Assembly (NCBI RefSeq): GCF_030247195.1
Contig: NC_080672.1
Coordinates: forward strand, 247,055,209 to 247,119,208
Direction of reading: 5' to 3'
Length of the DNA stretch: 64,000 bases
Origin: Topomyia yanbarensis
Lineage: Eukaryota; Arthropoda; Insecta; Diptera; Culicidae
The notes below the pieces were generated by a model. That model was given only the letters and a program-made list of their open reading frames with translations, was not told where the DNA came from and did no database searches. Below are positions 1-41,100 of this stretch, in pieces (within the stretch, counting starts at the first letter, position 1; each line of letters opens with the position of its first letter). Both the position numbers and the translations under genes were made by a program.

Positions 1-99
1 AACAAAATCCTTTATGATAATATAATGTTCTGTACCTGGTGTAATAATAGATTTGGAGAAGATCACAAGAATCATTTTCCTTGACGTGGCGATCACAAC

Positions 100-1366
100 A
101 TGGATAAATTTTGTATAGTACAAAGTTGTGGTAAACGAAGTTGTCAACTATTCCCTGTTCCTCATAAAGGCAGCAAAGTTTTCGGAAAATGGAGTAAATA
201 TATGAAGCTAAGCGGTGAATCAAAACACAGAATATGTGGAAGTCATTTCAAGCCGAAGGATTTCATCATAGGTGAGCAGTCAAAAATTCCAACCGTGAAT
301 ATTTGTTTATATGAATCTTTTTAAAACAGTCACAACCCAGAAATTGAATCGCACTGCAGTTCCATCGGTTTTTCCTTCCCATAGAGCTGTTGATGGAAAT
401 GCGTTATCAAAACACGGATGTTGTTTTTTAACTTGCAAAACACGCAAGCAAAAATTTCTGAATCGTTTCCCTCCTGTAACTCGACCAAGCATTCGTCACA
501 AGTGGATTGTAGCACTAGGGTTAATGGATCACGACATATCATGTTTGGGGCGCCTGCGTATTTGCCACAAACATTTTCAAGCAACAGATTTTTCAATTGG
601 CAAGTATTCTATGGAAACTATATGCATATTCATAATTTAAACCATGTTTTTACAGAAACAAAACGGTATCTTAAACCAAACGCAGTTCCAAGTCTTAAAA
701 TCAGGCCACTGATTTCGCTAAAAAGGAAAATTTACATCGAGAGAGGTAACACTGCAGAACAAACTCCAGAGCACGGATACGCAAAGTCTTAACTACCCAC
801 GAAGTAGTGTAATGTGTTCTATCAAAGGATGCACGGCACAAGCAGGAAATGGAATCATGCTACATAAGGTTCCTCCGCCAAATGCAAATATCTTCATAAA
901 GTGGGCTCGCGTTCTTAAATCGATACATTATCCTACAAAACATACACGTGTGTGTAGCAGGCACTTCTTGAAATCAGATTATACTGCAGGTTCTGATATA
1001 AACAGCATTTTTGAAATCAATTGACACGGATCTACTTACAGGTGGAAAGCGGTTAAGACCAGGATCATTTCCGACCCAATTCCTTACGACATCCCAAGCG
1101 CTTCAGATGTCGAATCCATACAAACGTACCTTTCGATCGTTCAAGCGGTTATCTAAAACGTCATCCAACCGAGATTCCGATTGTTACGAAGGAAGGACAT
1201 TAGTTAACAGCAGTCCGACATATACAAAGGATTCGCAAAGCGTGACAGGGAATGCTCCCATTGAAAATTCTTTATTAACTGGACATAGTACACACTCTGA
1301 AATCCCTGTATTAAACAAGCAAAATTATTCTACCGACGTAGAATTTGAAGAACACTTAGATCCATT
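100..1366 (+). CDS. Triple THAP-domain N-terminal part of ISL2EU-type transposase (five exons)
   Basis: THAP domains are C2CH zinc-coordinating DNA-binding modules used by several eukaryotic transposases to recognise element ends. I read five exons: 100-271, 330-603, 656-745, 808-989 and 1042 onward. The four introns of 52-62 bp (272-329, 604-655, 746-807, 990-1041) all begin GT, end AG and keep one frame; the third has the weakest acceptor. The joined product shows three consecutive THAP modules, each with C-x4-C near its start, a central Trp and a C-x2-H-F motif (ICGSHF, ICHKHF, VCSRHF). The first two end in the typical AVPS segment; the third ends differently, in a GKRLRPGSFP stretch. The start ATG at 100 places the first zinc ligand at residue 5, as is usual for THAP. 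The last exon runs into the tandem-repeat leader and stops at 1379, so the natural 3' part is lost or displaced. The DDE exon at 9.2 kb is the likely continuation. Confidence 0.75.
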
Positions 1367-2445
1367 TTGTCGTGACTAACGACTTACCTTTCAATATAGG
1401 GGCCCCTTTTCAAAATTTCGGCAGAAAAATGATGTAAGATTTTGAACGCTTATATCTTTTGTTGTACTGAATGGATTTAATCAATTTCTTCGGCATTTTG
1501 TCGAAAATATTTGTACCAATGTTGTATTAAATTTTGGAATATGTAGGACATTCATTATCAACGGAAAAATAGTGTTTTGAAAAATCTTTCGAAAACGACT
1601 CGGAAAAGTGAAAATTTTCAGCCCATCCCGCACAGAGCCTTCAAAATGGTGCAGCAAATGAACAATAAAATAATGAAAAGTTTATATATAGGTTCACTAC
1701 ATGTTTGTTCCTTTGATTATTCGTATTGGGTTGCTTGACGAGAGCAGTTGGTGGGGGAAAGCCGGCATATTAGTTTTGGTTATGCCGTTAGAAGCCGGAC
1801 GGAAAGGAAAGGCTCATGCACGCCACGAGAACGAGCGAGAAAGCGATAGTAGTGCATATTAGCGAAAGCGTTACGTACATTTTGAACCTTAATAACTTTT
1901 CTTCTACTAAACGGATTGCCAATCTTGTTTCATAAATCGGAAGGAAAACGTTCAACGCTTGCTACCGATACGTTGTTTGCTATATAAAATTTGTTTAAAT
2001 AGTTCAAAAACTACTTTAAATGAGAATCAACATTAATGATAAAACCTATAAATAGGGGTGTCGCAGCTTTTCTCAAAACCAGACGTGTGTAAGACGCAGT
2101 GCATAACAGACGTGCGTGGTCGTGAGAAGCTGCATCGGACGACCAATCAAATCAGCTACCATCGGAGAGAAGCAGAAAAACGTTGGTGGAGGTGGTGGCG
2201 GTGAGAAGGCCAAAAAGCCAAAGGCTAAGAAACGCAGTCACTGAAAAAGCGGTAGTAACTGCCACTAAAAATGCCACCAAAACATCGAAGACTGCAAAGC
2301 GTACTCATTCGGTGTGAGCTGCGAAAGGGGAAAGATCGTATGGATGTACGCAAAAAAAACAATCGTCGGCAAGGTTTGAATTGTTTTAAAAGATTCCCGT
2401 CTTGTATCAACATAGTTATCCACAAACCGTCCTTATTAGGACGAA
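1367..2445 (+). repeat. Leader of macro-repeat copy 1 (matches 5029-6106)
   Basis: The sequence from the GTCGTGACTAACGACTTACC motif at about 1367 recurs, with scattered substitutions and small indels, from 5029. It includes an AT-rich upstream part, a TATA box at 2047-2056, a short G-rich transcribed-looking stretch, the histone-H1-like remnant and a terminal stem-loop at 2428-2443. The left junction truncates the THAP exon. The right side passes without a break into the first short unit of the array. Confidence 0.85.
2047..2443 (+). pseudogene. Histone-H1-like gene remnant, copy 1
   Basis: After a TATAAATAGG box (2047-2056) comes a short leader and then, at about 2193-2243, a reading frame giving GGGEKAKKPKAKKRSH and a stop. 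In the next frame the sequence continues with lysine, alanine and threonine codons (TKTSKTAKRTHSV-like, to about 2316). Such K/A/P/T-rich peptide sequence is typical of histone H1 C-terminal tails. At 2428-2443 a six-bp stem (CGTCCT/AGGACG) closes a four-base loop (TATT), followed by a purine-rich stretch. This is the geometry of the 3' stem-loop of replication-dependent histone mRNAs. The globular H1 domain is absent and the tail is frameshifted, so this is not a functional histone gene. Identification as H1 is inference from composition plus the stem-loop; another lysine-rich protein is possible. Confidence 0.55.
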
Positions 2446-2707
2446 TGCAAAATGGAAAAAGAATTTAATTAGAAAGTTTCTTTTATTAACTAGTATTAAG
2501 TTTGCGCTTGGTAATTCTGTACTTTTACCAGTGAATCATGAGAAAATGTTTTTCTAATCTACAAACCCGAAGGTTTTTGCAAATCCTTCCAAGAAAATCA
2601 GTGAATGTGGCAACTCTGCTACTAAGCGAAAGCTACACCAAAACGAATGATGAAAATATTTTCATTTATCGAACAAAAGGACGGCCTTCCATCTGCATTG
2701 TAAAGTC

Positions 2708-2717
2708 TATAAATAGG
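2708..2717 (+). promoter_or_regulatory. TATA box of first array unit (repeats every 424 bp)
   Basis: TATAAATAGG recurs at the same place in each unit (about 2708, 3132, 3556, 3980, 4404, 4828 and in the block 2 units) and in both leaders (2047, 5707). In the short units it lies about 145 bp upstream of the stem-loop. Initiation some 30 bp downstream would give a transcript of about 130 nt. Function is inferred from the motif and its conserved spacing. Confidence 0.5.
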
Positions 2718-2851
2718 AATACCATGATGAAAACTGTGCTCATTCGGTGTGAGCTGCGAAAGGGGAAAGATGTATGTACGCAGTAAAAACAATCGTCGGC
2801 AAGGTTTGAATTGTTTTAAAAGATTCCCGTCTTGTATCAACATAGACAAAC

Positions 2852-2867
2852 CGTCCTTATCAGGACG
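2852..2867 (+). terminator. Histone-type 3' stem-loop, first unit (repeats at 3276, 3700, 4124, 4548, 4972)
   Basis: The sequence CGTCCTTATCAGGACG forms a six-bp stem with a four-base loop, flanked upstream by ACAAAC and downstream by the purine-rich GAAGGCAAAATGGAAAAAG, which could serve as a histone downstream element. It is unchanged in all block 1 units, and the leader copies differ only in the last loop base (TATT). The first stem pair is C-G where histone mRNAs usually have G-C. The match to the histone processing signal is by structure and is not tested. Confidence 0.55.
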
Positions 2868-5028
2868 AAGGCAAAATGGAAAAAGAATTTAATTAGAAAA
2901 TTTCTTTTATTAACTAGTATTAAGTTTGCGCTTGGTAATTCTGTACTTTTACCAGTGAATCATGAGAAAATGTTTTTCTAATCTACAAACTCGAAGGTTT
3001 TTGCAAATCCTTCCAAGAAAATCAGTGAATGTGGCAACTCTGCTACTAAGCGAAAGCTACACCAAAACGAATGATGAAAATATTTTCATTTATCGAACAA
3101 AAGGACGGCCTTTCATCTGCATTGTAAAGTCTATAAATAGGAATACCATGATGAAAACTGTGCTCATTCGGTGTGAGCTGCGAAAGGGGAAAGATGTATG
3201 TACGCAGTAAAAACAATCGTCGGCAAGGTTTGAATTGTTTTAAAAGATTCCCGTCTTGTATCAACATAGACAAACCGTCCTTATCAGGACGAAGGCAAAA
3301 TGGAAAAAGAATTTAATTAGAAAGTTTCTTTTATTAACTAGTATTAAGTTTGCGCTTGGTAATTCTGTACTTTTACCAGTGAATCATGAGAAAATGTTTT
3401 TCTAATCTACAAACCCGAAGGTTTTTGCAAATCCTTCCAAGAAAATCAGTGAATGTGGCAACTCTGCTACTAAGCGAAAGCTACACCAAAACGAATGATG
3501 AAAATATTTTCATTTATCGAACAAAAGGACGGCCTTCCATCTGCATTGTAAAGTCTATAAATAGGAATACCATGATGAAAACTGTGCTCATTCGGTGTGA
3601 GCTGCGAAAGGGGAAAGATGTATGTACGCAGTAAAAACAATCGTCGGCAAGGTTTGAATTGTTTTAAAAGATTCCCGTCTTGTATCAACATAGACAAACC
3701 GTCCTTATCAGGACGAAGGCAAAATGGAAAAAGAATTTAATTAGAAAATTTCTTTTATTAACTAGTATTAAGTTTGCGCTTGGTAATTCTGTACTTTTAC
3801 CAGTGAATCATGAGAAAATGTTTTTCTAATCTACAAACTCGAAGGTTTTAGCAAATCCTTCCAAGAAAATCAGTGAATGTGGCAACTCTGCTACTAAGCG
3901 AAAGCTACACCAAAACGAATGATGAAAATATTTTCATTTATCGAACAAAAGGACGGCCTTTCATCTGCATTGTAAAGTCTATAAATAGGAATACCATGAT
4001 GAAAACTGTGCTCATTCGGTGTGAGCTGCGAAAGGGGAAAGATGTATGTACGCAGTAAAAACAATCGTCGGCAAGGTTTGAATTGTTTTAAAAGATTCCC
4101 GTCTTGTATCAACATAGACAAACCGTCCTTATCAGGACGAAGGCAAAATGGAAAAAGAATTTAATTAGAAAGTTTCTTTTATTAACTAGTATTAAGTTTG
4201 CGCTTGGTAATTCTGTACTTTTACCAGTGAATCATGAGAAAATGTTTTTCTAATCTACAAACCCGAAGGTTTTTGCAAATCCTTCCAAGAAAATCAGTGA
4301 ATGTGGCAACTCTGCTACTAAGCGAAAGCTACACCAAAACGAATGATGAAAATATTTTCATTTATCGAACAAAAGGACGGCCTTCCATCTGCATTGTAAA
4401 GTCTATAAATAGGAATACCATGATGAAAACTGTGCTCATTCGGTGTGAGCTGCGAAAGGGGAAAGATGTATGTACGCAGTAAAAACAATCGTCGGCAAGG
4501 TTTGAATTGTTTTAAAAGATTCCCGTCTTGTATCAACATAGACAAACCGTCCTTATCAGGACGAAGGCAAAATGGAAAAAGAATTTAATTAGAAAATTTC
4601 TTTTATTAACTAGTATTAAGTTTGCGCTTGGTAATTCTGTACTTTTACCAGTGAATCATGAGAAAATGTTTTTCTAATCTACAAACTCGAAGGTTTTTGC
4701 AAATCCTTCCAAGAAAATCAGTGAATGTGGCAACTCTGCTACTAAGCGAAAGCTACACCAAAACGAATGATGAAAATATTTTCATTTATCGAACAAAAGG
4801 ACGGCCTTTCATCTGCATTGTAAAGTCTATAAATAGGAATACCATGATGAAAACTGTGCTCATTCGGTGTGAGCTGCGAAAGGGGAAAGATGTATGTACG
4901 CAGTAAAAACAATCGTCGGCAAGGTTTGAATTGTTTTAAAAGATTCCCGTCTTGTATCAACATAGACAAACCGTCCTTATCAGGACGAAGGCAAAATGGA
5001 AAAAGAATTTAATTAGAAAGTTTCTTTT

Positions 5029-6106
5029 GTCGTGACTAACGACTTACCTTTCAATATAGGGGCCCCTTTTCAAAATTTCGGAAGAAAAATGATGTAAGAT
5101 TTTGAACGCTTATATCTTTTGTTGTACTGAATGGATTTAATCAATTTCTTCGGCATTTTGTCGAAAATATTTGTACCAATGTTGTATTAAATTTTGGAAT
5201 ATGTAGGACATTCATTATCAACGGAAACATAGTGTTTTGAATAATCTTTCGAAAACGACTCGGAAAAGTGAAAATTTTCAGCCCATCCCGCACACAGCCG
5301 TCAATATTGTGCAGCAACCGAACAATAAAATAATGAAAAGTTTATATATAGGTCCACTACATGTTTGTTCCTATGATTATTCGTATTGGGTTGCTTGACG
5401 AGAGCAGTTGGTGGGGGAAAGCCGGCATATTAGTTTTGGTTATGCCATTAGAAGCCGGACGGAAAGGAAAGGCCCATGCACGCCACGAGAACGAGCGAGA
5501 AAGCGATAGTAGTGAATATTAGCGAAAGCGTTACGTACAATTTGAACCTTAATAACTTTTCTTCTACTAAACGGATTGCCAATCTTGTTTCATAAATCGG
5601 AAGGAAAACGTTCAACGCTTGCTACCGATACGTTGTTTGCTATATAAAATTTGTTTAAATAGTTCAAAAACTACTTTAAATGAGAATCAACATTAATGAT
5701 AAAACCTATAAATAGGGGTGTCGCAGCTTTTCTCAAAGCCAGACGTGTGTAAGACGCAGTGCATAACAGACGTGCGTGGTCGTGAGAAGCTGCATCGGAC
5801 GACCAATCAAATTGGCTGCCACCGGAGAGAGGAAAAACGGTGGTGGCGGTGAGAAGGCCAAAAAGCCAAAGGCTAAGAAACGCAGTCACTGAAAAGGCGG
5901 TAGTAACTGCCACTAAAAATGCTACCAAAACATCGAAGGCTGCAAAGCGTACTCATTCGGTGTGAGCTACGAAAGGGGAAAGATCGTATGGATGTACGCA
6001 GTAAAAACAATCGTCGGCAAGGTTTGAATTGTTTCAAAAGATTCCCGTCTTGTATCAACATAGTTATCTACAAACCGTCCTTATTAGGACGAATGCAAAA
6101 TGGAAA
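5029..6106 (+). repeat. Leader of macro-repeat copy 2, with second H1-like remnant
   Basis: This is a second copy of the 1367-2445 leader, joined directly to the end of array block 1 at 5028. It has a TATA box at 5707-5716. The lysine-rich remnant at about 5849-5900 is followed in the +1 frame by TEKAVVTATKNATKTSKAAK, clearer here than in copy 1. A stem-loop with loop TATT follows at about 6089-6104. The two copies differ by substitutions and small deletions (for example around 2165-2190 versus 5825-5845), so the macro-duplication is older than the homogenised dimers of block 1. Confidence 0.82.
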
Positions 6107-8339
6107 AAGAATTTAATTAGAAAGTTTCTTTTATTAACCAGTATTAAGTTTGCGCTTGGTAATTCTGTACTTTTACCAGTGAATCATGAGAAAATGTTTT
6201 TCTAATCTACAAACTCGAAGGTTTTTGCAAATCCTTCCAAGAAAATCAGTGAATGTGGCAACTCTGCCACTAAGCGAAAGCTACACCAAAACGAATGATG
6301 AAAATATTTTCATTTATCGAACAAAAGGACGGCCTTCCATCTGCATTGTAAAGTCTATAAATAGGAACACCATGATGAAAACTGTGCTCATTCGGTGTGA
6401 GCTGCGAAAGGGGAAAGATGTATGTACGCAGTAAAAACAATCGTCGGCAAGGTTTGAATTGTTTTAAAAGATTCCCGTCTTGTATCAACATAGACAAACC
6501 GTCCTTATCAGGACGAAGGCAAAATGGAAAAAGAATTTAATTAGAAAGTTTCTTTTATTAACCAGTATTAAGTTTGCGCTTGGTAATTCTGTACTTTTAC
6601 CAGTGAATCATGAGAAAATGTTTTTCTAATCTACAAATCCGAAGGTTTTTGCAAATCCTTCCAAGAAAATCAGTGAATGTGGCAACTGCCACTAAGCGAA
6701 AGCTACACCAAAACGAATGATGAAAACATTTTCATTTATCGAACAAAAGGACGGCCTTCCATCTGCATTGTAAAGTCTATAAATAGGAACACCATGATGA
6801 AAACTGTGCTCATTCGGTGTGAGCTGCGAAAGGGGAAAGATGTATGTACGCAGTAAAAACAATCGTCGGCAAGGTTTGAATTGTTTTAAAAGATTCCCGT
6901 CTTGTTTCACATAGACAAACCGGCCTTATCAGGACGAAGGCAAAATGGAAAAAGAATTTAATTAGAAAGTTTCTTTTATTAACTAGTATTAAGTTTGCGC
7001 TTGGTAATTCTGTACTTTTACCAGTGAATCATGAGAAAATGTTTTTCTAATCTACAAACTCGAAGGTTTTTGCAAATCCTTCCAAGAAAATCAGTGAATG
7101 TGGCAACTCTGCTACTAAGCGAAAGCTACACCAAAACGAATGATGAAAATATTTTCATTTATCGAACAAAAGGACGGCCTTCCATCTGCATTGTAAAGTC
7201 TATAAATAGGAACACCATGATGAAAACTGTGCTCATTCGGTGTGAGCTGCGAAAGGGGAAAGATGTATGTACGCAGTAAAAACAATCGTCGGCAAGGTTT
7301 GAATTTTTTTAAAAGATTCCCGTCTTGTATCAACATAGACAAACATAGAATTTAATTAGAAAGTTTCTTTTATTAACTAGTATTAAGTTTGCGCTTGGTA
7401 ATTCTGTACTTTTACCAGTGAATCATGAGAAAATGTTTTTCTAATCTACAAACTCGAAGGTTTTTGCAAATCCTTCCAAGAAAATCAGTGAATCTGCCAC
7501 TAAGCGAAAGCTACACCAAAACGAATGATGAAAATATTTTCATTTATCGAACAAAAGGACGGCCTTCCATCTGCATTGTAAAGTCTATAAATAGGAACAC
7601 CATGATGAAAACTGTGCTCATTCGGTGTGAGCTGCGAAAGGGGAAAGATGTATGTACGCAGTAAAAACAATCGTCGGCAAGGTTTAAATTGTTTTAAAAG
7701 ATTCCCGTCTTGTATCAACATAGACAAACCGGCCTTATCAGGACGAAGGCAAAATGGAAAAAGAATTTAATTAGAAAGTTTCTTTTATTAACTAGTATTA
7801 AGTTTGCGCTTGGTAATTCTGTACTTTTACCTGTGAATTGTAAGAAAATGTTTTTCTAATCTACAAACCCGAAGGTTTTTGCAAATCCTTCCAAGAAAAT
7901 CAGTGAATGTGGCAACTCTTCCACTAAGCGAAAGCTACACCAAAACGAATGATGAAAATATTTTCATTTATCGAACAAAAGGACGGCCTTCCATCTGCAT
8001 TGTAAAGTCTATAAATAGGAACACCTTGATGCGAAGCGTACTCAATCGTCGGTAAGGTTTTAATTGTTTTAAAAGATTCCCGTCTTGTATCAACATAGTT
8101 ATCTACAAACCGTCCTTATTAGGACGAATGTAAATTGGAAAAAGAATTTAATTAGAAAGTTTGTTTTATTAACTAGTATTAAGTTTGCGCTTGGTAATTC
8201 TGTACTTTTACCAGTGAATCATAAGAAAATGTTTTTCTAATCTACAAACTCGAAGGTTTTTGCAAATCCTTCCAAGAAAATCAGTGAATGTCGCAACTCT
8301 GCCACTAAGCGAAAGCTACACCAAAACGAATGATGAAAA
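6107..8339 (+). repeat. Tandem array block 2: diverged units of ~385-424 bp
   Basis: Six further units follow the second leader, the first starting near 6120. They share AACACCATG in place of the block 1 AATACCATG. They are more diverged than block 1: one lacks the stem-loop region (deletion near 7346), one lacks GTGGCAACT (near 7493), and one near 8030 has a leader-like TGCGAAGCGTACTC segment and a TATT-loop stem-loop, suggesting exchange between unit types. The last unit is cut off at about 8339 where the TIR element begins. Confidence 0.85.
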
Positions 8340-9230
8340 GATGGGTTGGTGATGTATATGACATAACAGGGGTGTCGTGACCACACTTCGAAGTTATTTC
8401 AAATCTTGCAAAGCATAAATTGACATAATTTCAATGATTGTTCCTTTATGAATGAAATGACAAATTTTCAGGTCAACGCGGCAATAACTTTGCAATTTAT
8501 AGAACAATTTTATATTTTTAGTTATCATATATTAACTGTCATCTCTTCCAAACAACTTAACCCTCTGCTGCCAACCCCGTGGTTTTGCAGGGTTAAGGAG
8601 AATCATTGTAAAATGTCCAATACATGATTTTATGTTGTTACCTCCACTAAAACCACTTCAGAACACTCCCACCTGTCATACATGCACATTGTCTGCTTGT
8701 TGAAATCATTATATGAAATTATTGACCTGTATTCAATGCGGAGAACTCGGTAATAAAATTGTTTTGCTGAATATACCAACGAACGGGATCCCCAGGAAAA
8801 TTTCGCTGAGCCCGGTGAATCGAACTTAATGCGTAAAATTTAGCCATTTGAAAGAGATACAAGCAGAATTTTAAGAATATGATCATCGCGGTTATGTCCC
8901 GGACATTACCCGCTCCTAGTTTTTTGCTAAGTGTGTTCATTTCTGTACGAAAAAGATTCCGATGGTTGTTTCGAGAGATTTTAACATTGATATTTCAAAG
9001 CAAGAAAATTGTTCATTTCATGAATGAATGTCTCAACCAGCTTAGAATCCAGCGCATCCCCTATCAACGCAGACGCCAACAATAAAGGTTCTTTTCAAAA
9101 CCACCATAATTATTATAAAGAATAACTTGAAACATTCCCACATATTTCATTGAGTATCATTCGATTTGAATTACAAGTCAAACGAGTAGTCACGACACTC
9201 CGGTTATGTCCTAGACATTACCCACCCATC
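8340..9230. mobile_element. Non-autonomous TIR element between array and DDE exon
   Basis: Terminal inverted repeats of about 42 bp (8340-8382 and 9189-9230) begin GATGGGT(T/G)GGT(G/A)ATGT and share GTGTCGTGAC at their inner ends. A partial copy of the right terminus, including GGTTATGTCC(C/T), also occurs internally at about 8888-8915. No convincing target duplication or coding capacity was found. It separates the last array unit from the transposase exon, so it either inserted there or is part of the rearrangement that split the transposon. Confidence 0.7.
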
Positions 9231-9232
9231 TT

Positions 9233-10228
9233 TTTTTATTCAAAGAGTGCTCCAACTCAAACTACCATAATCAAACTATCAATGCGGACGAACCGTTAAA
9301 TACCATATCTTTTGATAATAATAAAAAACGCGGGGAACGTTCAATGCTGCCTGATTTAATCCAAACTGATAGAGACGTTATTGTTTGGACAGGAGTTGCA
9401 TCTCTAAAACAATTAGATGCTATATGCGTTTCAGTAAAGATTTTGGAGGACCATGTGTATCAAAAGATGTTTCGAATGCATACCGCAGATCGTGTAATTT
9501 TGAGTCTTGCAAAGTTGAAGCAAAACAATTCATTTGCCGCTCTTGCAACCTTATTTCATATCTCACCAGCCACCGTAGCGTACTATTTCAATCATACATT
9601 ACAAGTATTAGCAATTGTTCTTCGACAGTTTATATATTGGCCAGAGCGAGATGAAATTCGACGAAACATTCCTTTATGCTTCCGAGATAGGTTTTATAAT
9701 GTGAGATGTGTTTTAGATTGCACAGAAGTCCCAGTAGCTACTCTGAAGTGCGTAAACTGTTGCATAGCATGCTATTCAAATTATAAAGGCAGAAGAACAG
9801 TGAAATTTTTGATAGGAATTACACCCGCAGGCACAATTAGTTTTGTTAGCGAAGCTTACAGCGGAAAAGCATCAGACAAGCTAATATTCAATGCAGAAAA
9901 TGTTGTTTCTCTACTCGATCCGTATACAGATGAAATAATGACCGATAAAGGTTTCAATATAGAACGAGAGTGTATGGAGCATGGGCTGCGTTTGCATATT
10001 CCACCATTTCTGCGTGGGGACCGGCACAGTTCGGAAGATGCTGCACTCAATGAACGTATTGCTAAAACCAGGATACATGTAGAGCGAGTCATCCAAAGAA
10101 TCAAGCTATTTGGAATATTGCAGACTACAATAGACGCTTCCACCTTAGGGTTGATCAACAATATAATGACAGTTATTTGTAGTTTAGTCAATCTGTCGTC
10201 GCCAGTTCTGAGTGATGATAGATTTTAA
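9233..10228 (+). CDS. DDE transposase exon (DDE_Tnp_4 type) of the ISL2EU-type element
   Basis: This is the catalytic part of a cut-and-paste transposase. Counting from the Met at 9344 it shows a helix-turn-helix-like segment (about residues 64-89), then the acidic triad expected of DDE_Tnp_4 proteins: Asp125 in VLDCTE, Asp201 in MTDKGF and Glu247 in HVERVIQRIK, with LHIPPFL between the second and third. The open frame extends upstream of Met344 to about 9233, and a possible acceptor follows a T-run near 9246, so the true exon start is uncertain. Its THAP DNA-binding exons lie at 100-1366, 8 kb upstream, beyond the tandem array. The exon ends at 10228 with polyadenylation-like AATAAA near 10276, facing the nuclease gene. 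The frame is intact, so a trans-acting or newly spliced product cannot be excluded. Confidence 0.85.
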   Translation, partial: FLFKECSNSNYHNQTINADEPLNTISFDNNKKRGERSMLPDLIQTDRDVIVWTGVASLKQLDAICVSVKILEDHVYQKMFRMHTADRVILSLAKLKQNNSFAALATLFHISPATVAYYFNHTLQVLAIVLRQFIYWPERDEIRRNIPLCFRDRFYNVRCVLDCTEVPVATLKCVNCCIACYSNYKGRRTVKFLIGITPAGTISFVSEAYSGKASDKLIFNAENVVSLLDPYTDEIMTDKGFNIERECMEHGLRLHIPPFLRGDRHSSEDAALNERIAKTRIHVERVIQRIKLFGILQTTIDASTLGLINNIMTVICSLVNLSSPVLSDDRF

Positions 10229-10330
10229 ATAAGGATTCTGCAGAAGATCAAAGAATGGTTTGTTTTTTTTTTTTAAATAAATTTTCTGATGATCAGAATA
10301 TGCTTGTTTATTTTATTATCACCAGCATTT

Positions 10331-12040
10331 CTATTTTGAATGTGAATTATTCCTCATAGAAGCATCTGTTTGTACAGAAATCTTATTTCTAGAAACAATT
10401 TGCGATAACATATGATCAAAATATACATTTTGTAATTTTGTGATAAGCTGATCAGTATACTGCTTATCATAACTTGTATCTAGTACGACGAAATCGTCAT
10501 CAAATTTTGAATAAACGACAAAATCACATTTGCTGCAATTCAATATATGCATGTTCAGTTGAATCTGAGCAAAATATTTATGTTTTGGATTCAAGTACAT
10601 TGTCTGCCCTTGAATACGTAAATATGATTTTGTAGCTTTACACAGATTAGTAATATAGTCTAAGCCGTTACTTTCGCCTGACGTAGGACACTTTATCTCC
10701 AATACCACATGACCAAAAGGATCAACACCGTCTGGGCTCGCGCCTATCCAAGGTTTGCTTGGACATACAACAAAGCCACATTTTTTAATAAGTGGATTAC
10801 GCTTTGACTTGTAGCATTCAAAGGCTTTTCGCTCGGTTTCCTTTCCGTATTTCATTGCGTGTGTTGTGACAGTCTTCGGTGCAAGGTAACTTCTGATTTT
10901 TTTTGGCCAATCTGGAGATTTATTCGAGCCATATGTGTACAGCTCATAGCACGAACTAGCAGTTATGCGAATTGATCGATGCAGCTTCCAAGCATTATTT
11001 GACTGACATTTGGATTCTTCGCATATGTTGATGACGGATTCGATTTCTTTATAAACAAATTGCTCATAAAATTGTTTGTCATCTTCAGACAAAAAGTCGA
11101 TTCCATCATAAGCTGACGAAGATTCGTGGAAAGATAACAATTCTTGTATCTCGTTTCTGGTCACATAGATTTCCACATTTGTATTAGTCAGGGGACCAGT
11201 GTTCGGTTTTGGCGTTCTGAGAATTCTTCCATCCAGGTGCTTCTTAATTGCTGAGTCTGGCGAAGCTAAAAAATTAATTTCTATAAGATAAATAATGTTC
11301 ATATCCATATTCATACCTTCTAAAATACGATCAAAAGCGTCTTTAAGTAACTGTTCCTTTTTGGAAGAATTCTTTTCTAGAACAACTTTATGTTTGCGCA
11401 CACAACAAAGTTTGGACACCGGTTTCGCACCCCACAAACTAGTTTTTTCTGCTTTACTGATCCCCCAGGCCTGTCGTGAATCCGTACAAGTAATAAATTC
11501 CACAAATCCGAATCTAAAAAATCATATCAAGGAGGTTAAATTTATACATCAAATAACTGCAATATAATTTTTACTTACTGACAAAGATGAAGTAAACAAG
11601 CAACAATGTGTTTGCACCTGGCGGTTCCTGCTTTACAGGAACACGATAATGCCCATTGCCGGTAGTCCGATCCTATCCTTAGTTTTATCTCGTGAGGTGA
11701 TTGTCCGGGATGTGAACTTTGAAGTACATACGCTTGAAGTTCGATGCTGGATCCTTCTTGCTTCGTATATCCGATACATACTATGTGTCCAGATGTAAAC
11801 ACATTTTGTCCTTCGCGAAGGGGTCGTATTGAATCCCCAACGTAATCCATTACATCTCCGAGGGTAATGGAAATTCGTTTTACTTCTGGTTCTGCCACAT
11901 CTGAAAATTCACCCAACATAACCTCTGTAGTACACAAATAATCCCAAAATATTCCATAAAAATATATTTCACTTTTTGAATATCACAGCAAACGATAAAA
12001 TAATCTTTTTCTTACCATTGTTATTCATTTCCCAATTCAT
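10331..12040 (-). CDS. SWIM zinc-finger plus YqaJ-type nuclease, second protein of ISL2EU-type element (three exons)
   Basis: YqaJ-family proteins are lambda-exonuclease-like PD-(D/E)XK nucleases; a SWIM plus YqaJ protein accompanies the transposase in ISL2EU elements. I read exons 12040-12016, 11924-11579 and 11513-10331, with GT-AG introns of 91 and 65 bp, giving 517 residues. The tiny first exon is preferred because the longer open frame from 11937 has no ATG. The N-terminal half contains CSCKAGTARCKHIVACLLHL, a CxCxnCxH SWIM finger. The C-terminal half shows R-x-TASSC, G-x2-E, GASPDGVD, LEIKCP and Q-x-Q motifs: the nuclease core with its metal-binding Asp, Glu and Lys. No frameshift was seen. 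It is convergent with the DDE exon. Confidence 0.85.
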
Positions 12041-12611
12041 TTTTCGTGATTTTTAAGGAAATTTTTTGATGTAATAGTGCTTCTGTAGAATCCCGAACTG
12101 TATTTTATTTTGTTTACACTTTTTTTGTGGTTCACAAAAATATCACTAGTTGGCGCACGAGTAGTTACAGTTTGTTTTAAAATGGCCTATTGTAGCAACG
12201 CAATTTTTTAACTTTCCGATGAAATAAAAAAAAACCTCATAACTCATGTTCATGTTCACCTATGTTCATGCTGTGATTCGTGACTAGGTGCAATCTGCAT
12301 TTTCATCTACACGGCATATCAAAAATCCGTTTTCTTAAACCGTCCAACTTTCCGCAATACGTACTTCTAAACGATTGCTTTCTGCCCCGATACGCCAATT
12401 CGACTCACATCGCCATTACTGAACAATTACTATCCAGCTTCACTCAAACGATTCTCCCCCGCAACATAACAGTCTACCACAACGACTAAAAATATTTGCT
12501 CAGGTTTTTAATTTCGAACGACGAAATCAAATCAAATAAAGCCGCTGGTTGTCATTCTGTCTGGGAAATGAATGAAAAAAACGAAAACCTTGCATGCAGC
12601 ATTCATTCTAA

Positions 12612-12707
12612 GGGTCGATTTCATCACCCTCTCTTAGCTTTTAAACCAGGTTTACCAGTACGTTTAAACCTGGCTTAAGCGCTAAGCGAGGGTGAAGAAA
12701 TCGGTCC
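12612..12707. mobile_element. 96-bp palindromic MITE, TAA target duplication
   Basis: Arms beginning GG(G/A)(T/C)CGATTTC fold onto each other around a short centre (GTTTA/TAAAC inner pairing). TAA flanks both sides (12609-12611 and 12708-12710), as in PIF/Harbinger-type elements. There is no coding capacity. The surrounding 12.1-12.6 kb is AT-rich with nothing else recognised. Confidence 0.65.
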
Positions 12708-12896
12708 TAAATCGTTTTATACTCCGCACCGTACTGGGCTTAACTAATGTACAGAGCACGACTTTCACAGAAAAAAAAGTTCTTTGATTGCATCAACGTG
12801 TCGGTTCTACCACTAAGAACGATAGAAATGTTACGCAAAACCAACTGAGGCTGTCATCGCTCATTAATTCCATATCAACTTTTGAATAGGGCTAAT

Positions 12897-13081
12897 AAGA
12901 TTTGTAAACAAACTTTTGTTTTGCTGATTTCTCTTAATTTGTTATAAACTGAACACAGAAAACATTTGAAATTGATTTTACCAAGGGTAAAGATGTTGAT
13001 TCATGTGTACTTTTCACGAAATTCAACTCGGCAGCGGAATAGTGAGCGAAACTAGTTTGTTTACAAAAATCTCATTAGCCC
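12897..13081. mobile_element. 185-bp MITE with GGGCTAAT(A/G)AGAT ends
   Basis: Inverted ends share GGGCTAATAAGATTT and GTAAACAAAC. TTTTGAA occurs on both sides (12890-12896 and 13082-13088). The duplication length is ambiguous because the terminal T/A can be assigned either way; a hAT-like origin is possible. Confidence 0.55.
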
Positions 13082-13195
13082 TTTTGAAGAATTAACATTG
13101 AATTATAGTTGTAGACGTATGCGCAAACTGTCCTGTGCGGTACAAGACGGCAACGTTGCAAGTCGCATAACAGTTTTACTGAGAGCTGTCGTGCT

Positions 13196-13593
13196 CAGGG
13201 TTACCACATATACAGATTATTCTGTATTTTACAGATTTTTCTAGATAATTTACGACCAAGAATCTGTATATACAGATTACAGATTTTTGGCTAAAATACA
13301 GATTTTGCAGATTTTCAGTGTAGATATGTAGTACCCAGTCTATCAGAATTTCGAATAACGTTTAAAACACTCAGACCTTAAGAAATCACTTAGCCGTGGA
13401 ACAAAAGTGCCAAATTTTGATATAATTTTTTCTACAAACAAAGATTAATTAATTTTTCATTGTCAAAATATAATTTTTTTGGGAAGCTTCTAGTTAATTT
13501 TTGAATACAGATTTTCGATACAGATTTTTTCCCCGCGATGCAGATTTACAGATTTTTTCACGAAAAATTACAGATTTTAATGTGGCAACCCTG
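13196..13593. mobile_element. 398-bp hAT-type MITE
   Basis: Ends are CAGGGTT(A/G)CCACAT in inverted orientation, flanked by a perfect 8-bp duplication GTCGTGCT (13188-13195 and 13594-13601). A CAGGG terminus plus 8-bp duplication is the hAT signature. The body is built from scattered ACAGATTT motifs in both orientations. Confidence 0.85.
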
Positions 13594-21149: not shown

Positions 21150-22720
21150 ATGTCACGATTCAAGGCATTATTCACACAAAGATTCCCAATTATAGGGATG
21201 ATTCATGTAGAACCTTTACCAGGTCAGTTATATACCGTGTGGCATTTTCCTTACGGGAGAACAATAATTGTTTTTCGTGCCACAGGCACGCCTCTTTACA
21301 GGGGAAATTTCGACGACGCTATAAAGAAGGCAATTTGTGAGGCTACTATATATTTGCAAAGTGGAATTGTACAATGTACTTTAATGTGTATGTTAACGGT
21401 AACTTGACAGACTACTAATTATAGGATGGAGTTATAATTGAAAATATGCATGATGTCCCGTACGTTAAAAGCCGTTATTTTACACCGGAAACCGTTTCTT
21501 GTATGAGCAGACTTGCGTTGGCTGTGAAAGAAACTATAAGAAACGCAATTCCGTGTGGTATCCAGGTAATTTGTATTTTATACGCATTCAATATTGCATT
21601 ATTTTACGGATAATTCAGCACAAATTCTTTAGATTTTGGCCTGCGGTAATATGGAAGCTTTAGCAGTGTCGAAAGCCTGTAATTTGAACTTTATTCGCGC
21701 CGAAGGATTTGTGTTTTCTCACGTTGCAGATGAAGGGTTTACCGATGCTACTGCTGGACATATCCTTAGATATAGGAAAATTATAGATGCTGAACCCATA
21801 GGAGTGATCACAGACATCAAGAAAAAGCATAGGTAATATTTGAAGATTTTTTTCAATAGGTCCAATCTGCAAATGGGAGCCCTCTTTTTTCGCTTACTCT
21901 TTCGATTATTACTGCAAAACCACAAAAATTTTCGAACATTTCTAGAGAAAATTTAGAATAGGACGTAAGTAACAATGAGAGTTTCTCTTTGGGGTCTTTC
22001 TCTTCCGTTCATTACTTGGCCATATCAACATTTACCACTCTACTCTTTGCATAATATTCTAGTAAAAATCGTCGGCTTTCGATGTGTATTGGAAAATTAG
22101 TGCAATGTGTTGTAATGCCGTTGTAATTAACGAAAGAGAAAGTAAACAAAGAGAGGCTCTCAATGTTACGTCCTGTTGAAAATTTTCTCTAGATCAGTAT
22201 GTTTCGGAAGACCAAGGTTTTTACTAGCTTATTAAGCAAACAGTTGAAGGGAAATCAGAAAGGTGACCGGGTATTTCGCCGAAGAGAAAGTAAACAAAGA
22301 GAGGCTTTCTTTTGTAGATTGGACCTATTGAAAAAAAGTCCTCATTTTCTCTATGCTAAATGCGTACATATTTATGATGTTTCTTTTGTTAGTTCCCATG
22401 CCATAACCAGTGATGTTTCTGTGTTGGATACTGCGAGAGCAGCTGAGTTTTTTTGTTCCGACGGGATTGTACTGACGGGCGAAGCAACTGGGTGTGAAAC
22501 AAACGTCGAGGAGGTACAATCTTTGAAAAAGGTTAATTTACCGTTGATTATCGGTTCTGGAGTGACACTTGAGAACGTCGACAACTACTGGAATACGGCC
22601 CACGCAGCCGTCATCGGATCGTATTTTAAACATGACGGAAACTGGAAAAATGATTTGTGTGAAGCTAGAGTGCGTTTAATGATGAAAAAAATTGATGTCT
22701 TTCGGAATCAATTACAATAG
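21150..22720 (+). CDS. BtpA-family protein (TIM-barrel-like), five exons
   Basis: I read exons 21150-21222, 21286-21368, 21425-21565, 21633-21832 and 22393-22720. All introns are GT-AG (63, 56, 67 and 560 bp), giving 274 residues in one frame. The product has the BtpA-family N-terminal signature IIGMIHVEPLPGTP, then GVIIENMHD near residue 55, VITDIKKKH in the middle and IIGSGVTLENVDNY toward the C-terminus. BtpA-like proteins occur in bacteria, where one member is linked to photosystem I biogenesis, and in some animals, where they are annotated as mitochondrial proteins of unknown function. A biochemical role is not established from this sequence. The ATG at 21150 is the first one directly before the conserved segment; the upstream in-frame start is not ATG. 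It is convergent with mRpL52, 41 bp apart. The last intron is swollen by nested MITEs. No defect was seen. Confidence 0.85.
21841..22345. mobile_element. ~500-bp MITE in the last intron of the BtpA-family gene, with a nested MITE at 21942-22192
   Basis: Outer arms share TTTTTTTCAATAGGTCCAAT in inverted orientation (near 21847 and 22335). An inner pair, CTAGAGAAAATTT with AGGACGTAA in inverted orientation, bounds 21942-22192. Both lie wholly in the intron, so exon sequence and splice sites are undisturbed. Confidence 0.65.
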
Positions 22721-23558: not shown

Positions 23559-23818
23559 CAGAGATGCCAGGTACTTTTTTCAAATGTCTGCAATAATAAT
23601 TTTAAAAGTCTGGGAAGAACAAAAAATGTGAGGCAAGATAGTGTAACCAAAAGCCTTTATATTCAAAAATCTGCAAATATCTGCAACCAAACTAAAAAAT
23701 CTGCAAATATCTGCAACCAAACGGAAAAATCTGCAAATATCTGCGTCATCGAAAAAATCTGCAGCTTAAATTAAAAGTCTGCGAATTTGCAGACTTGTCT
23801 GCAAATCTGGCATCTCTG
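23559..23818 (+). mobile_element. 260-bp hAT-type MITE, family C copy 1
   Basis: Ends are CAGAGATGCCAG in inverted orientation with a perfect 8-bp duplication CGACAAAC (23551-23558 and 23819-23826). The body has tandem AAATCTGCAAATATCTGCAA motifs. An inverted copy of the same length is at 33620-33879. Confidence 0.9.
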
Positions 23819-23887
23819 CGACAAACATATGATTACGGCCTAAAAGCCAGCTGTCAAAATCCACTTTGAATGGAAATTCCCAGGTAA

Positions 23888-28874: not shown

Positions 28875-31800
28875 ATGGAAGTTTCAAATGGTTTCGATTT
28901 GCTGCTTGGTATATAATTTTATAAAATACTATATTACAACGATATAGTAATAGTTTCTTTCAGATGCAGCAGCGTTGATCAGTAAGGAGGAAACAGAAAC
29001 TGGTGTTGTATTTTCCAATCCATCCGTTGCGCTCTATGAGGAGATCGAAAATTGTTCCAATCTATCGAATGCACCGGAAAATTTCACGGACAGGACAAAC
29101 AATAATATAGGCATTTCGTTTGCGAATGTAGTTTCGTCAACTCCAAATAATCGTCAATTTTTGCGTCAATCAGAACGAGAAAGCGAACAATCCTATAATG
29201 AGACTTTGTTAATTCACACCATTGATTATCAGCAGTTTCGTGCTCATCGCAGCGAACGTACATACAATGAATCGCGACTAATTCGAACAATGGACGAACA
29301 ATACCTTCGTACTGCTAAACGAAGTTCAAATGATGTACCGTTCGGCTTGCGATCTTATGAAGAGCATATGGCAAACCAATTGCTTAGTACTCCTCGTCGT
29401 GATCATATAAGTGTACCAGAAAGCCTGCACGGTGAATCGTTGAACCGCTCTATCAGCAGCACACTTTCTACCTGGAATGGACCATCTCGCTCAGATAGTT
29501 TTCGTTCACCAACAGACGATAGTCCTCGCGCTGTTGCGTCATTTGCTAAGCCAATGGAACACCGTCTTTGTCGTAGTCGTCGCAATAACTTCCGACCATC
29601 GTTTGATGATCACAATCACGAAGAGACTACCCAATCGGTCTTTAAAACATCGAGTATTGCAAACTTCTCGTCGTAAGCGTTTTGAGCCGTTTTCTTCAAC
29701 AGAACGCTTTCGGGATACCTTGCTATTCAATCGTTCTGCGTCGAGGTCTTCACGCAGTGACTCGTTAGCCAGCTTACGTAGTACCATCGATCCTATGATT
29801 ACGCCCCCAACAGGTCAAACTTCGAGTTACAATCGTAGTGATCCATTCTCAAGTCGACGTATTCACCACGGGGTGCTGTCCAATCATTCTAGCTTAAAAT
29901 CATCACATCGTAACCCGTTATCTAACATGCGTCCTTACAATGATCATTTAGTAACCCCCGCTACAGGCCAATCTTCAATGCCGCTTAAAATTAGCAAAGA
30001 CACACAAGCCGACGAAAATACATCGGATTCCAAGGGTTCTGATGCTTTAATTACATTTAGTAAACATAATAATGAACCGCCATCTTTAACAACAGAAGGG
30101 CTCGAGTTAGTGAGCACAGCAGATATGTCTCAACTCGGTGACAATAGAGGCGACATTTGTGATGCAGACTCAAATAACAGTGAAGACGGCGATGAGGCAG
30201 GAGACGCCACGCTGTTGAACGATTTTTCGCTTTTTGAATATTTCCAATCTTACCATCACGAAACATTGATAAATGAAACTGATTCCACTGATATCTCTGA
30301 TGAAGGTTTGTATGGAAGGAAACGAAATTAACAAAAATATACAATATTTTATTATTTTTTACAGAGGAACTAGGTTTAGGATTCAAAGAATTCGAGGCGC
30401 CATCCAGCAAGAAAAGAGATTCAAATTCAAAGAATAAAGATCTGAAAGAGCGGGGATTGGAGTATACTCGTTCTAATGGCAAGAAAGCACCAGCTCGAAG
30501 CATCAAAGCGCCGTGCGAATGTTCGAAAATGGCCTGTCATTTGAAGTACAACGCTGATATGCGCGAGAAAATGCTAAAAAGCTTGCTCCAGCTAAAATCA
30601 TCAGGCCAAAACCAGTTCCTCAGTTCGCATATCGATATAAAATATGCGGCCAAGCATCGAGTGAGCAAATTGCAATTCAATATATGTAGTATTAATATTA
30701 CCAATTCCGTTGGCTTTTAGGTTTTGAACTCACAAAGAAAATTCACCTTTAATTATTTTTTACCCGGTGTCGGAGGAAGAGTACGTATTTGTAAGAAAAT
30801 GTTCCTCTCAACATTCGACATTAAAGAGAAGAAGGCCAGAGTTCTAGCTCAAAAGCTGGTAAGAGGTTCGGGAATTTGCGCTGAAGACAAGAGATCGGAG
30901 TTTTCAAGCCATATAACGATAGGCCAGGAAACACGTCATTACATCGAAGAACACATCAAATCATTTCCATCCTATCGATCACACTATTGCCGCGAATCAA
31001 GCAGTCAGATGTATTTGTCATCTGATTTGAACATTCGAAAAATGTTCGATTTGTATGTGGCCAAATGCAAGGCAGATGGCCAACAAATAGTCCACTATAA
31101 TACGTATCGTTTGATATTCCGTTCATTCAATCTAAAATTTAAAAAACCTCAGAAAGATTGTTGTAATGAATGTGATCGATTCAAAATTACTATGAAGACA
31201 GCACCTGATGCAAACGCGAAAGATGATATCCAGCAAGCCCAAAAGAAACACCAAGAAGCTGCACAATACGTTTATAGCAAGAAAAAGGAGAACGTTGCAG
31301 AAGCTAAAAAATGCAAATCGGTTTGCACAGCGAGCTTTGATCTCCAAAAATGCCTGGCAACACCGTTTTTAAGATGCGGAGTTGCGTTTTATAAACGGCA
31401 ATTATATACATACAATCTTACTGTTTTCTACACTATAAACGGTACTAATAATGTTAAATGTTTTATTTGGGATGAAACAATCGCTCGCCGCGGCGCCCAG
31501 GAGATCGGTTCATGCTTGTTACACTTTCTGCAGGCTCTGCTTCGAGAGCATCCTGATATACGTATTATAAATTTGTATTCAGACAGGTGTAGCGGACAAA
31601 ATCATAATTTTATTATATGCATGACGTTAAGCTTCTTCGTGGAATCCATGCGACCGGCAGGGCTGGATATCGTCATTCATCATAATTTCATGGTATCCGG
31701 TCACAGCCACATGGAGGTGGACTCCGTGCACGCTGCCATCGAGAAGGCGAAGAAAACCACAACTATCGACATTGAAATCCCTCGAGACTGGGCGGTATTT

Positions 31801-32277
31801 ATCGCTCAGGTGAGAGCGACGAATCCATTCCATGTAATTGAACTAGACCAGTCTCAATTCTACGCACTAAAAAAACTGACGACACGCTACAAACGCCCGA
31901 CACATGACGACAATAATAAACATTTCAAATTTAAGCCCATCGTATCGTTCCAATATCGATCGTCAGATCCGGGAGTAGTAGGCTTTAAAATTGATCATTA
32001 CGATCAACAATACGCTACATTTACAGTAGCAAATAAACGGGATCTCGATAATATACCAATTCCAATGCTGGAACGGATCGACGAGCAACCGCTTAAGCTG
32101 CAACAAGCTAAACTGAATGATCTCCGAGACCTGATGAGTTATGTCACTAACAAAGACTACTACGAAACCATGTTAAAAAATATCACCACGTCAAAACGAG
32201 GCCGAAAACAAAAAGAGCCAGAGCAAGAATTCATTTTCGACGCGGACATGGATCCCAATGTCGAGGACGATTATTGA
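28875..32277 (+). CDS. DUF7869-like protein of possible transposon origin (frameshifted)
   Basis: I read exons 28875-28908, 28964-30305, 30365-30660 and 30721-32277 with GT-AG introns of 55, 59 and 60 bp. The N-terminal third is low-complexity, rich in Ser/Arg/Asn. From exon 3 it has KAPCECSKMACHL, then VRICKKMFLSTFDI, NLYSDRCSGQNHNF, and HNFMVSGHSHMEVDSVHAAI, the conserved spine of a large family found in insects and other eukaryotes as many paralogues of unknown function. The spaced Asp/His/Glu positions (YSD, GHS-x3-VD, AIE) invite comparison with DDE/RNase-H-fold nucleases; that is inference. The large second exon switches frame between about 29620 and 29676, so either a one-base indel breaks the gene or a short intron is missed. 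The 517-residue C-terminal part is otherwise intact, and an AATAAA follows at about 32310. Whether it is a host gene or a transposon relic is open. Confidence 0.62.
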
Positions 32278-38184: not shown

Positions 38185-41100
38185 TCAGTTCGTTTCTAAA
38201 TAAAATTTTAGCTCATCTGTATCTATATCAATATTACTTTGGTTAATATAATTAATATAATTTATAAACAATTTAAGCACTTTTACCCTAATATGTTTTG
38301 ATAGATTAGAAAGAGATGGTTTGATCAAATCCTCGAAACACAGTCGTCTTCCACCTGGATATATCGTCTCAAGCTTTAGTCTGAAGAGAACCCATGCCGC
38401 TCTTACTCTCGGGCACTCAGAGAATTTATGCTCCAGAGTCTCTATCACTACGTTGCAATGTACGCAATATTCATCGTCTGCTCTTCGAATTGTGCACATT
38501 AGTTGTCGATGTTCAGTTTTTCTATTCACCAACATATATAATGCTCCTCGTTGTGATGATGTCAGCTTCTGTGTAGATATGTTGTTCCAAACGTGTTTCC
38601 AGTTAACGGTCGGGTTGTCGCGTTCGACTTTCGGTGCTTCTGTTTGCTCTACGTAATATTGGAGAAAATTACCGGCAGATAAATTATGCAGCAGATGAGC
38701 TGGCAGCTGGTAATAGGATTGGCGGACTAGCTTCAAGCATGGTATATCAGCTATTGGGACTGGTTGGTTAACAGCGTTTTGGAGGATCACAGCTTTGTAG
38801 AATGTCATGCACTCTATCTCTTGAAGATGACGATTGATTAAAAGCGCCTTGCACTTTTGAGCTGGAAGCTGGAGCTTTAATCCTCCCTTCTCGATACTTC
38901 GTGACAATTGTTGCATAGCAATCCGAGCTGGTACTCTGCTCCACAGAAACGTGCCCATCGTCGATGTCAGTTTTGCCGTATGAACGTTGAGCGGCATTAG
39001 GGTCGATGCTAAATACCAAATTTTGGATGTTATGAATGTATTGAGGAGCATTATTTTTTGATGAAGAGTCAGAACTCGCAATGAATGGAGCCAAACTAAT
39101 CTAGAAAATTTGATGACTACATCATTCCAGTTTATGGATGTCATTTGTCGAATAGAGTTGACAAACGTTACACCTAGGATTCTAATTTGGTCGGTTGTGT
39201 GTAACCAAGGTACTTGCAATGCCAGTTCATCTACGAGCCCAACGTTAATTGCAGTCGTCTTGTTCCAATTGAGTTTCGCCCCGGCTAACTGCTCAAACCG
39301 AGAGAAAATGTCGCGAGTTTGCTCTATCCTGCGTGTTGATGTTACAATCATACTTATATCGTCCGCATAGGCCACCACTAGATCAGTGCCACATACATTT
39401 TCAAGTTCTCTCACTAGTGGAAGAAGATAGAGAATGAACAGGTGCATGCTGATTGGGCATCCTTGTCTGACCGATCGTTGGATACGGAATGAAGGAGATA
39501 GATGGCCATTTACTAATATGCGGGATGAAGAGCGATCAGCTAATCGTGAGAGTAAATCCACAAACTGTGTGTTGAAGCCTAGTGATCTCATATTTCCATA
39601 TAGGAACGAACGTCGTACGCGATCAAATGCATGGTCTAGGTCGAAGGAGATCAGCTTCCCCCGTTGTTTGTTTTTGATCATTTGGGCTATTCGATCTTTG
39701 AGAGTAAGTGTTGCTTGAAATATATTCGCGTCAGGGTTTGCACATTTTTGTGCGTTGCCTACAATCCGATGTCTTCTCATGACTGTCTCAAGTTTACCTT
39801 TCAGAATGCGTGTTAGTATCTTGTAATCAAAATTTAGCAGCGAGATCGGTCGGTATGCCCCTATGGTGTCTCCGGAATTCTTTTTTTTCACCATTACAAT
39901 TATCCCGTTTACGAACTCAGATGGAAAGTTTTCAGTGAGTGCTTCATTGAGGATCAGATTGAGTTCTCTGTGTATCACATCGAACAACTTGTGGAAGAAC
40001 TCTTTCGGGAGGCCATCTGGGCCCGGTGCCTTTCTGGATGCGCTCGCCCTTATTGCTGAGAGTATTTCTGCTGTTGTGATGTCGTTCATCATAGTTTCGT
40101 TTATCTCGTCGTTTTCTGGAATAATTCTCTCGCACCGAAAAACAGTTTCTGTTGGTTGATCTTCCCTCTCATTTTCTTTGTATAGTTCAGAGAAATATTT
40201 ATATATATGCTCTTCTATTGCATCAGAACTCTCGAGAGTTTCGCCGTGCTCATTTTGAAGCTGAGTGATCGCTGTTCTCTTCTTAGTTCTCTCGCCTATC
40301 TGGAAAGTGGAGAGTGGTTCCCCGGATATATGCGTATCGTTGATCCGCATGAACATTTGTGTATGTGTTCGTTGGAGTGCAAGCATCTCTCCCTTCAACC
40401 GATTTATTGTTGTTAACATTCGAGGATTTTGATAGTAGTCGTCGTATGCCTGTCGAAGTTGACTGTAGAGTCTCTGGTGCTCAAGATGGTAGTTATCATA
40501 GGCAGTTTTCGATTTCCACCGAAAGAAAGACTTAGTCTTTTTCTTGGCGTAGTACATCCACCAGTTGATCCAAGACGGATAATAGCGCCATTGTCTGGTC
40601 CAATATTGCCATTGATTACGGAAATCGTTGATATTTTCGGGCGTTAGGAGGTACGGGCGAAGTGACCAGAATCCGTAGCCTTGTCTTCTACCTAGATTGG
40701 GAAGGCAGATTCTCGCTGTGAGCGCTTTATGATCCGTGAATGAACACACATGTGTATCCGCCACTCTCAGTTGATCCCGAAGATTAGAGCTAATATATAT
40801 ACGATCTAATCTCGACATAGTGCTTTGGGTTATGTATGTGTATCCAGGAGTACGAGAGTACAATTTCTCCCAGACGTCGTGTAGTTGCATGTGGCGTACT
40901 AGCGTTTGAAGAGCTGTGCTTGTGTTGTGTCCTGTTGCATCACATTGCCTCAGAACACAGTTAAAATCGCCAGCGAGAATTGTGTGTTCTGTCTGATGAC
41001 GTAGATAGTATGGTAGTGTGGAATTAAAGAAGCGTTCTCGTTCTGCACGGAGAGCCGTGCCTGATGGCGCATATATATTGCACAGAGTGGTGTTGTGTAT

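Follow-up and report, generated by a model that had tools for sequence, protein, structure and literature searches.

Organization of the tandem array

The DNA analyzed here is a 64,000-nucleotide stretch of the mosquito Topomyia yanbarensis (contig NC_080672.1, positions 247,055,209 to 247,119,208), which we call the window and number from its first letter. It contains an array of short units in which TATA boxes and histone-type stem-loops recur with almost no coding sequence left, headed by two leaders with histone H1-like codons. The array consists of two tandem blocks (1365–5024 and 5025–8342) that are 94.6% alike. At the head of each block stands a leader of about 680 bp, which leads up to a TATA box (2047 in the first block, 5707 in the second); the units that follow are shorter, at about 424 bp. 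The exact box TATAAATAGG occurs 13 times in the array, at 2047, 2708, 3132, 3556, 3980, 4404, and 4828 in the first block with its leader and at 5707, 6356, 6778, 7201, 7586, and 8010 in the second; one more exact copy lies outside the array at 19936. Tandem Repeats Finder reported periods of 424 bp (6.4 copies, 98%), 422 bp (3.3 copies, 96%), and 385 bp (3.5 copies, 77%), and the head-to-tail, homogenized copies place the array among the tandem satellites or minisatellites. No further copy of the block was found within the window.

All features of the array lie on the forward (+) strand. The part of leader 1 upstream of its H1-like TATA box spans 1367–2046, the block repeat starting at 1365, and that of leader 2 spans 5025–5706, as delimited by leader identity and block alignment. 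The two leaders are identical at 1094 of 1136 positions (96%). The first series of units (2708–5024), whose final unit at 4828 is truncated, alternates A and B units in an 848-bp dimer: the A units (2708, 3556, and 4404) differ among themselves at 0–1 sites and the B units (3132 and 3980) at none, with 3–4 differences between A and B. The second series (6356–8009, TATA boxes at 6356, 6778, 7201, and 7586), delimited by unit alignment, shows 4–10 differences among its units. It is followed by a final unit (8010–8341), recognized by stem-loop search and unit alignment, which has a leader-type stem-loop at 8111–8126 and a different deletion of its own that leaves GCGAAGCGTACTCA, near the GCAAAGCGTACTCA of the leader. 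Because the ten standard units are about 97–100% alike throughout, their conservation is unusable as evidence of selection.

A histone-type stem-loop downstream of the TATA boxes

A 16-nt stem-loop follows the TATA box in 12 of the 13 units, each time with no more than one mismatch to CGTCCTTATCAGGACG. Being nearly palindromic, the motif gives 24 matches at these 12 places when both strands are counted, where 0.22 are expected for up to three mismatches. The stem starts 143–144 bp after the start of the TATA box in the nine standard units that retain it, 381 and 369 bp after it in the leaders, and 101 bp after it in the final unit. In the first block, it lies at 2428–2443 in leader 1 (CGTCCT-TATT-AGGACG; motif search and the rule given below), at 2852–2867 in the first standard unit, and likewise at 3276, 3700, 4124, 4548, and 4972 (motif search, rule, and fold). 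In the second block, motif search located it at 6076–6091 in leader 2 and at 6500–6515 in unit 6356 (units are named by the start of their TATA box), and in broken form at 6921–6936 in unit 6778 and at 7730–7745 in unit 7586, where CGGCCT, a T-to-G change, breaks pair 3. Folding of 6916–6941, which covers the unit 6778 stem and is the only broken stem that was folded, yielded no hairpin (−3.8 versus −8.4 kcal/mol for the intact stem). In unit 7201, the stem-loop is missing, as is part of the purine tract described below. The stem is fully paired in ten of the 13 units.

A rule for metazoan histone stem-loops, written after the array had been viewed, specifies six pairs (the first free, the second G-C, the third to fifth Y-R, and the sixth T-A) and a T-N-T-H loop. 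It matches ten times in the window, always within the array (10 of 13 units), where 0.03 matches are expected (2 in 60 simulated sequences). Two contaminant contigs with histone genes assigned by eye served as controls. One of them, L001, is filed under a bacterial metagenome-assembled genome; its positions 1–5648 carry H1, H3, H4, H2A, and H2B together with 5S rRNA, U1, and U2, and it is evidently an animal multigene cluster. The other, L002, carries the end of an H4 gene, H2A, H2B, H3, and the start of an H4 gene. Rfam Histone3 has three matches in L001 and one in L002, and the rule has two and four, respectively; the rule therefore misses some true stem-loops.

In the first standard unit (unit 2708), the stem is immediately followed by a purine-rich tract at 2868–2887, in which 18 of 20 positions are purines (90%), a level attained by 0.04% of 8016 windows outside 1367–9234. 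It resembles the histone downstream element (HDE), and a purine-rich downstream element is expected at replication-dependent histone 3′ ends (PMC2781718).

Several observations weigh against a histone identity of the hairpin. The array has neither the G-C first pair nor the ACC-type 3′ flank of L002: its stem begins with a C-G pair, where the rule matches of both controls have G-C, and its flank reads AAGG or AATG. The Rfam Histone3 model (RF00032) finds nothing in the window at its gathering threshold (34 bits), and at E ≤ 10 it matches neither 1300–8400 nor either of two stretches of 81 bp that were searched separately. Sub-threshold Rfam matches (snoRNA, sRNA162, miRNA, and others) include nothing histone-like and were read as chance.

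The original prediction, made from the letters of this DNA before our analysis, had every unit of about 424 bp keep a TATA box and, about 145 bp later, a histone-type stem-loop with purine-rich sequence downstream. The TATA box is indeed present in 13 of 13 units, the spacing found in the standard units agrees with the predicted one, and the tract of unit 2708 provides the purine-rich sequence. The claim is too broad for the stem-loop, given its absence from unit 7201 and the two broken stems. Its histone type is supported by the rule and the purine tract, but not by Rfam.

H1-like tail codons in the leaders

In leader 1, the putative H1 pseudogene extends from the TATA box at 2047 to the end of the stem-loop at 2443. 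Frame 0 of its tail remnant (2137–2244) reads GRPIKSATIGEKQKNVGGGGGGEKAKKPKAKKRSH and then stops, after which a Lys/Ala/Thr-rich run, shifted to the next frame, extends as far as the TGA at 2315–2317. The corresponding stretch of leader 2 spans 5707–6091, with the tail remnant at 5800–5874 and the part in the other frame at 5897–5944. By tblastn, the leader 1 tail matches the Topomyia H1 protein P0251 at 60% over 30 amino acids, the matched part being the P0251 tail from about residue 133. The H1 proteins P0251–P0255 of T. yanbarensis have a common tail up to about APAKA, after which their ends differ; they are perhaps truncated or mis-modeled H1 copies.

The leader peptides were ranked against 224 H1 proteins, which are the distinct entries in the best 120 of 3658 and the best 120 of 2650, both lists having been scored from about 8,000 candidates each. 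By shuffle z-score, the five listed T. yanbarensis H1 proteins take ranks 1–5 of 224 with the frame-0 peptide of either leader. When the leader 1 frame-0 peptide was shuffled 20,000 times, the real score was reached by no shuffle against P0251 and by three against P0254. With two slices of a Lys-rich open reading frame (ORF) of a long interspersed nuclear element (LINE) in the same window as controls, Topomyia H1 appears at rank 37 or lower. The joined peptide of leader 2 places the Topomyia proteins at 1, 2, 3, 5, and 7 by raw score, and that of leader 1 places them at 1, 2, 3, 4, and 6 by z-score, with a Culex H1 fifth.

An H1 origin also meets contrary evidence. The match is short and biased in composition. 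In tblastn over the whole window, the LINE ORF reaches E 4.7e-5 against Culex H1, close to the E 1.5e-5 of the leader against P0251, which makes plain tblastn the weaker evidence. On its own, the stretch of the tail in the second frame scores about like its shuffles in a comparison with the first 120 H1 proteins, a set without Topomyia (best scores of 43 and 45; shuffle maxima of 48 and 44). In that set, the joined leader 1 peptide attains a score of 76 with Culex H1, and the maxima of its shuffles are 74 and 77.

What the frame-0 peptides retain is a Lys-rich C-terminal tail homologous to H1, and neither a Linker_histone globular domain nor an intact ORF was found. No ATG lies upstream of the tail in the leaders, the tail shifts frame, and the frame-0 peptide matches 0 families in Pfam. 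When six H1 proteins were searched by tblastn against 1301–9300, matches beyond the tail appeared only at E 2.5 or worse, except that an N-terminal Lys-rich 9-mer matches the tail itself at E 1.1. Two apparent globular-domain matches in unit 7586 (P0219 residues 90–109 and P0167 residues 83–113 against 7596–7691; E 2.5 each, across a stop) were rejected as noise because the order in the leader would be wrong, with this domain after the tail. With core-histone queries, the non-insect proteins of L001 and L002, the sole match in the same interval was one of H3 (E 4.1), likewise read as noise.

An ordinary satellite, in which the TATA box, the hairpin, and the Lys-rich codons coincide by chance and have no relation to histones, would account for the deviant first pair and 3′ flank of the hairpin, the low complexity of the peptide, the negative Rfam result, and the second-frame part that scores about like its shuffles. 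It is very improbable in view of the ten matches to the stem-loop rule against 0.03 expected, the presence of the purine tract, and the Topomyia-specific match of the frame-0 peptides to H1. A histone H1 origin of the leaders is supported by these peptides, whose best matches among the 224 proteins are to the Topomyia H1 tail. The similarity is present at the protein level, so a complete lack of similarity to H1, which would have counted against the predicted histone origin, was not what we observed.

Relation of the units to the leaders and a proposed origin

In both leaders, a TATA box is succeeded by codons like those of the H1 tail, then by the histone-type stem-loop, and last by the purine-rich tract. 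The other 11 units have the TATA box in all cases and a recognizable stem-loop in ten, and their coding part is almost gone. Judging from the alignment, a standard unit consists of the last tail codons (THSV-stop) and the downstream part, placed behind a different TATA-bearing stretch, in agreement with the prediction that the coding part of the units is cut to the end of a Lys-rich tail. Over the 200 bp ahead of their TATA boxes, unit and leader align with a score of 18, against a shuffle mean of 17.8; as these upstream sequences are unlike, simple shortening of the leaders does not account for the units. The leaders had also been described as the fuller parent of the units. This holds for the order of TATA box, H1-like tail, and stem-loop, but the upstream ATG and the globular domain are missing, the tail changes frame, and the upstream 200 bp do not resemble those of the units. 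The CTCATTCGG of the units, considered as a cap or start site, was dropped because the same letters encode THSV-stop in the second frame of the leader.

We regard the block as probably a degenerate, amplified histone H1 pseudogene (an ‘orphon’) that has grown as a minisatellite. In the proposed course of events, an H1 copy located away from the histone cluster would have been stripped of the globular domain and the 5′ part of its coding sequence, and a later deletion would have brought the H1 3′ end next to a second stretch with a TATA box. Unequal exchange may have amplified the resulting 424-bp unit, in the first series by 848-bp A/B dimers, as the A/B alternation suggests. The block of 3.3–3.7 kb would have been duplicated once, apparently earlier than the A/B amplification, to judge from the 96% identity of the leader pair, and a THAP/DDE transposase gene would have become its host. 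The missing ATG ahead of the tail, the frame change, and the stem lost or broken in three of 13 units point to decay, and the persistence of the TATA box and stem-loop would reflect the recent descent of the copies.

The host transposase gene and the adjoining element

The block appears to be inserted in a transposase gene. The THAP part of this gene lies at 410–1379 (+), as found by tblastn of Topomyia P0018 and Armigeres P0007, with a further THAP exon at about 100–300 (+) detected by Pfam; Pfam returned nothing for the ORFs 394–792 and 1002–1379 read from stop to stop. The HTH_Tnp_4 and DDE_Tnp_4 part lies at 9215–10228 (+), as identified by Pfam and by collinear alignment of the flanks to P0018. 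Both P0018 and P0007 match on either side of the block, and the joined flanks are collinear with P0018 residues 184–534 across the insertion, with small gaps. The THAP, HTH_Tnp_4, and DDE_Tnp_4 domains on the two sides are thus collinear and look like one THAP/DDE gene, the exact insertion edges being approximate. The best named transposase matches come from Armigeres, Topomyia, and Malaya. Next to the DDE_Tnp_4 gene is an ORF with a YqaJ-like recombinase domain (10331–11521, −), as in ISL2EU-type transposons.

A short element at 8336–9234 (no strand assigned), with 72-bp inverted repeats of 81% identity (8336–8405 and 9163–9234), abuts the right end of the array. The 9-mer TGTCGTGAC is found at 1368, 5028, and 8373 (+) and at 9189 (−), so that in the first 14 kb it occurs only at the leader starts and in the arms of the short element, and a common origin of the left boundary of the block and the end of the element is possible. 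Both the abutting element and the shared 9-mer, as well as the position within a transposase gene, would suit a H1-derived array that was captured, amplified, and moved as cargo of a DNA transposon instead of arising as an independent minisatellite. We consider this unlikely: the shared motif is short, low-stringency BLAST of 1340–2046 against 8300–13500 gave no inverted match to the left end of the block, and the block has no second home in the window.

Possible activity of the array

As an amplified H1 pseudogene, the array most likely does nothing specific, its signals having been kept by recent descent, and the loss or breakage of the stem in three of 13 units gives no sign of maintained function. 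Some units may be transcribed and cleaved in the histone manner to give RNAs of about 130 nt, which the original prediction expected in bulk from an active array. Transcripts of H2A and H3 in Anopheles funestus are over-represented in rRNA-depleted relative to poly(A) libraries, a pattern that the authors describe as consistent with unpolyadenylated histone forms (PMC4647341). By analogy with this library pattern, histone-style processing of unit transcripts is conceivable and possible in principle.

A stronger proposal makes the array an active source of capped, non-polyadenylated, stem-loop-ended RNAs of about 130 nt that would compete for SLBP/U7 or mark the histone locus body. It can point to the TATA box in all units, the fully paired stem-loop in most of them, and the purine tract downstream. 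It is distinctly unlikely, in that the stem is lost or broken in three units, Rfam Histone3 gives no match, and the predicted RNA of one standard unit has a folding energy typical of its shuffles (z −0.59). Very improbable, too, is a role of the units as coding-free ‘mini histone genes’ with a working promoter and a histone 3′ end, which would produce S-phase stem-loop RNAs for SLBP/U7 titration or nucleation of the histone locus body; the multi-copy, noncoding histone-type gene family that such units would form is equally improbable.

Comparison with known histone loci and satellites

Orphon or solitary histone H1 genes are known, for example the H1 orphons of mussels (PMC6210712). The array is like these genes in being H1-derived sequence without an adjoining core-histone gene (no match above noise in 1301–9300), and unlike these coding genes in that its coding part is nearly gone and its 424-bp units are tandemly amplified. 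Replication-dependent histone 3′ ends combine a stem-loop with a purine-rich HDE (PMC2781718, PMC1924863). The array resembles them in its 6-bp stem, 4-nt loop, and purine tract directly downstream, but differs in its C-G first pair, its other 3′ flank, the negative result with Rfam Histone3, and the lack of an intact upstream ORF. With the tandem histone clusters of L001 and L002, whose genes were assigned by eye, it shares the 3′ stem-loop in a tandem arrangement; unlike those clusters, its units carry no histone ORF.

Satellites and minisatellites derived from genes form a general class, which the array resembles in its homogenized tandem repeats and dimeric higher-order pattern. It differs from them in that most of its units keep both a promoter-type box and the 3′-end signal typical of the parental kind of gene. 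Pseudogenes of histones and satellites derived from genes are known kinds; a promoter-type box and a histone-type 3′ signal without the coding part are an unusual combination. No tandem array of coding-free histone units is named in the literature surveyed, most subscription journals being outside its scope. If the units are transcribed, nature would have set up a test of whether a stem-loop suffices for SLBP/U7 processing when no histone message is attached, and of how well a cell tolerates surplus stem-loop RNA. If they are silent, they would exemplify a histone gene seeding a minisatellite.

Other features of the window

A tRNA scan found none, exact 24-mer scans of viral and prokaryote contigs gave no match, and an H4 search of viral contigs had none confirmed. 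The region 38185–41490 (−) resembles a retrotransposon without long terminal repeats (non-LTR), with a 1101-amino-acid open frame that contains endonuclease and reverse transcriptase domains. Further non-LTR retrotransposon-like ORFs, judged by eye, lie at 51307–52965 (+) and 55729–58792 (−). An ORF with a BtpA-family domain at 22193–22720 (+) is perhaps an exon of a host gene. Two inverted copies of 261 bp (23559–23819 and 33879–33619), which are 96.6% identical and about 10 kb apart, have between them an ORF at 30721–32277 with a DUF7869 match below the Pfam cut-off.

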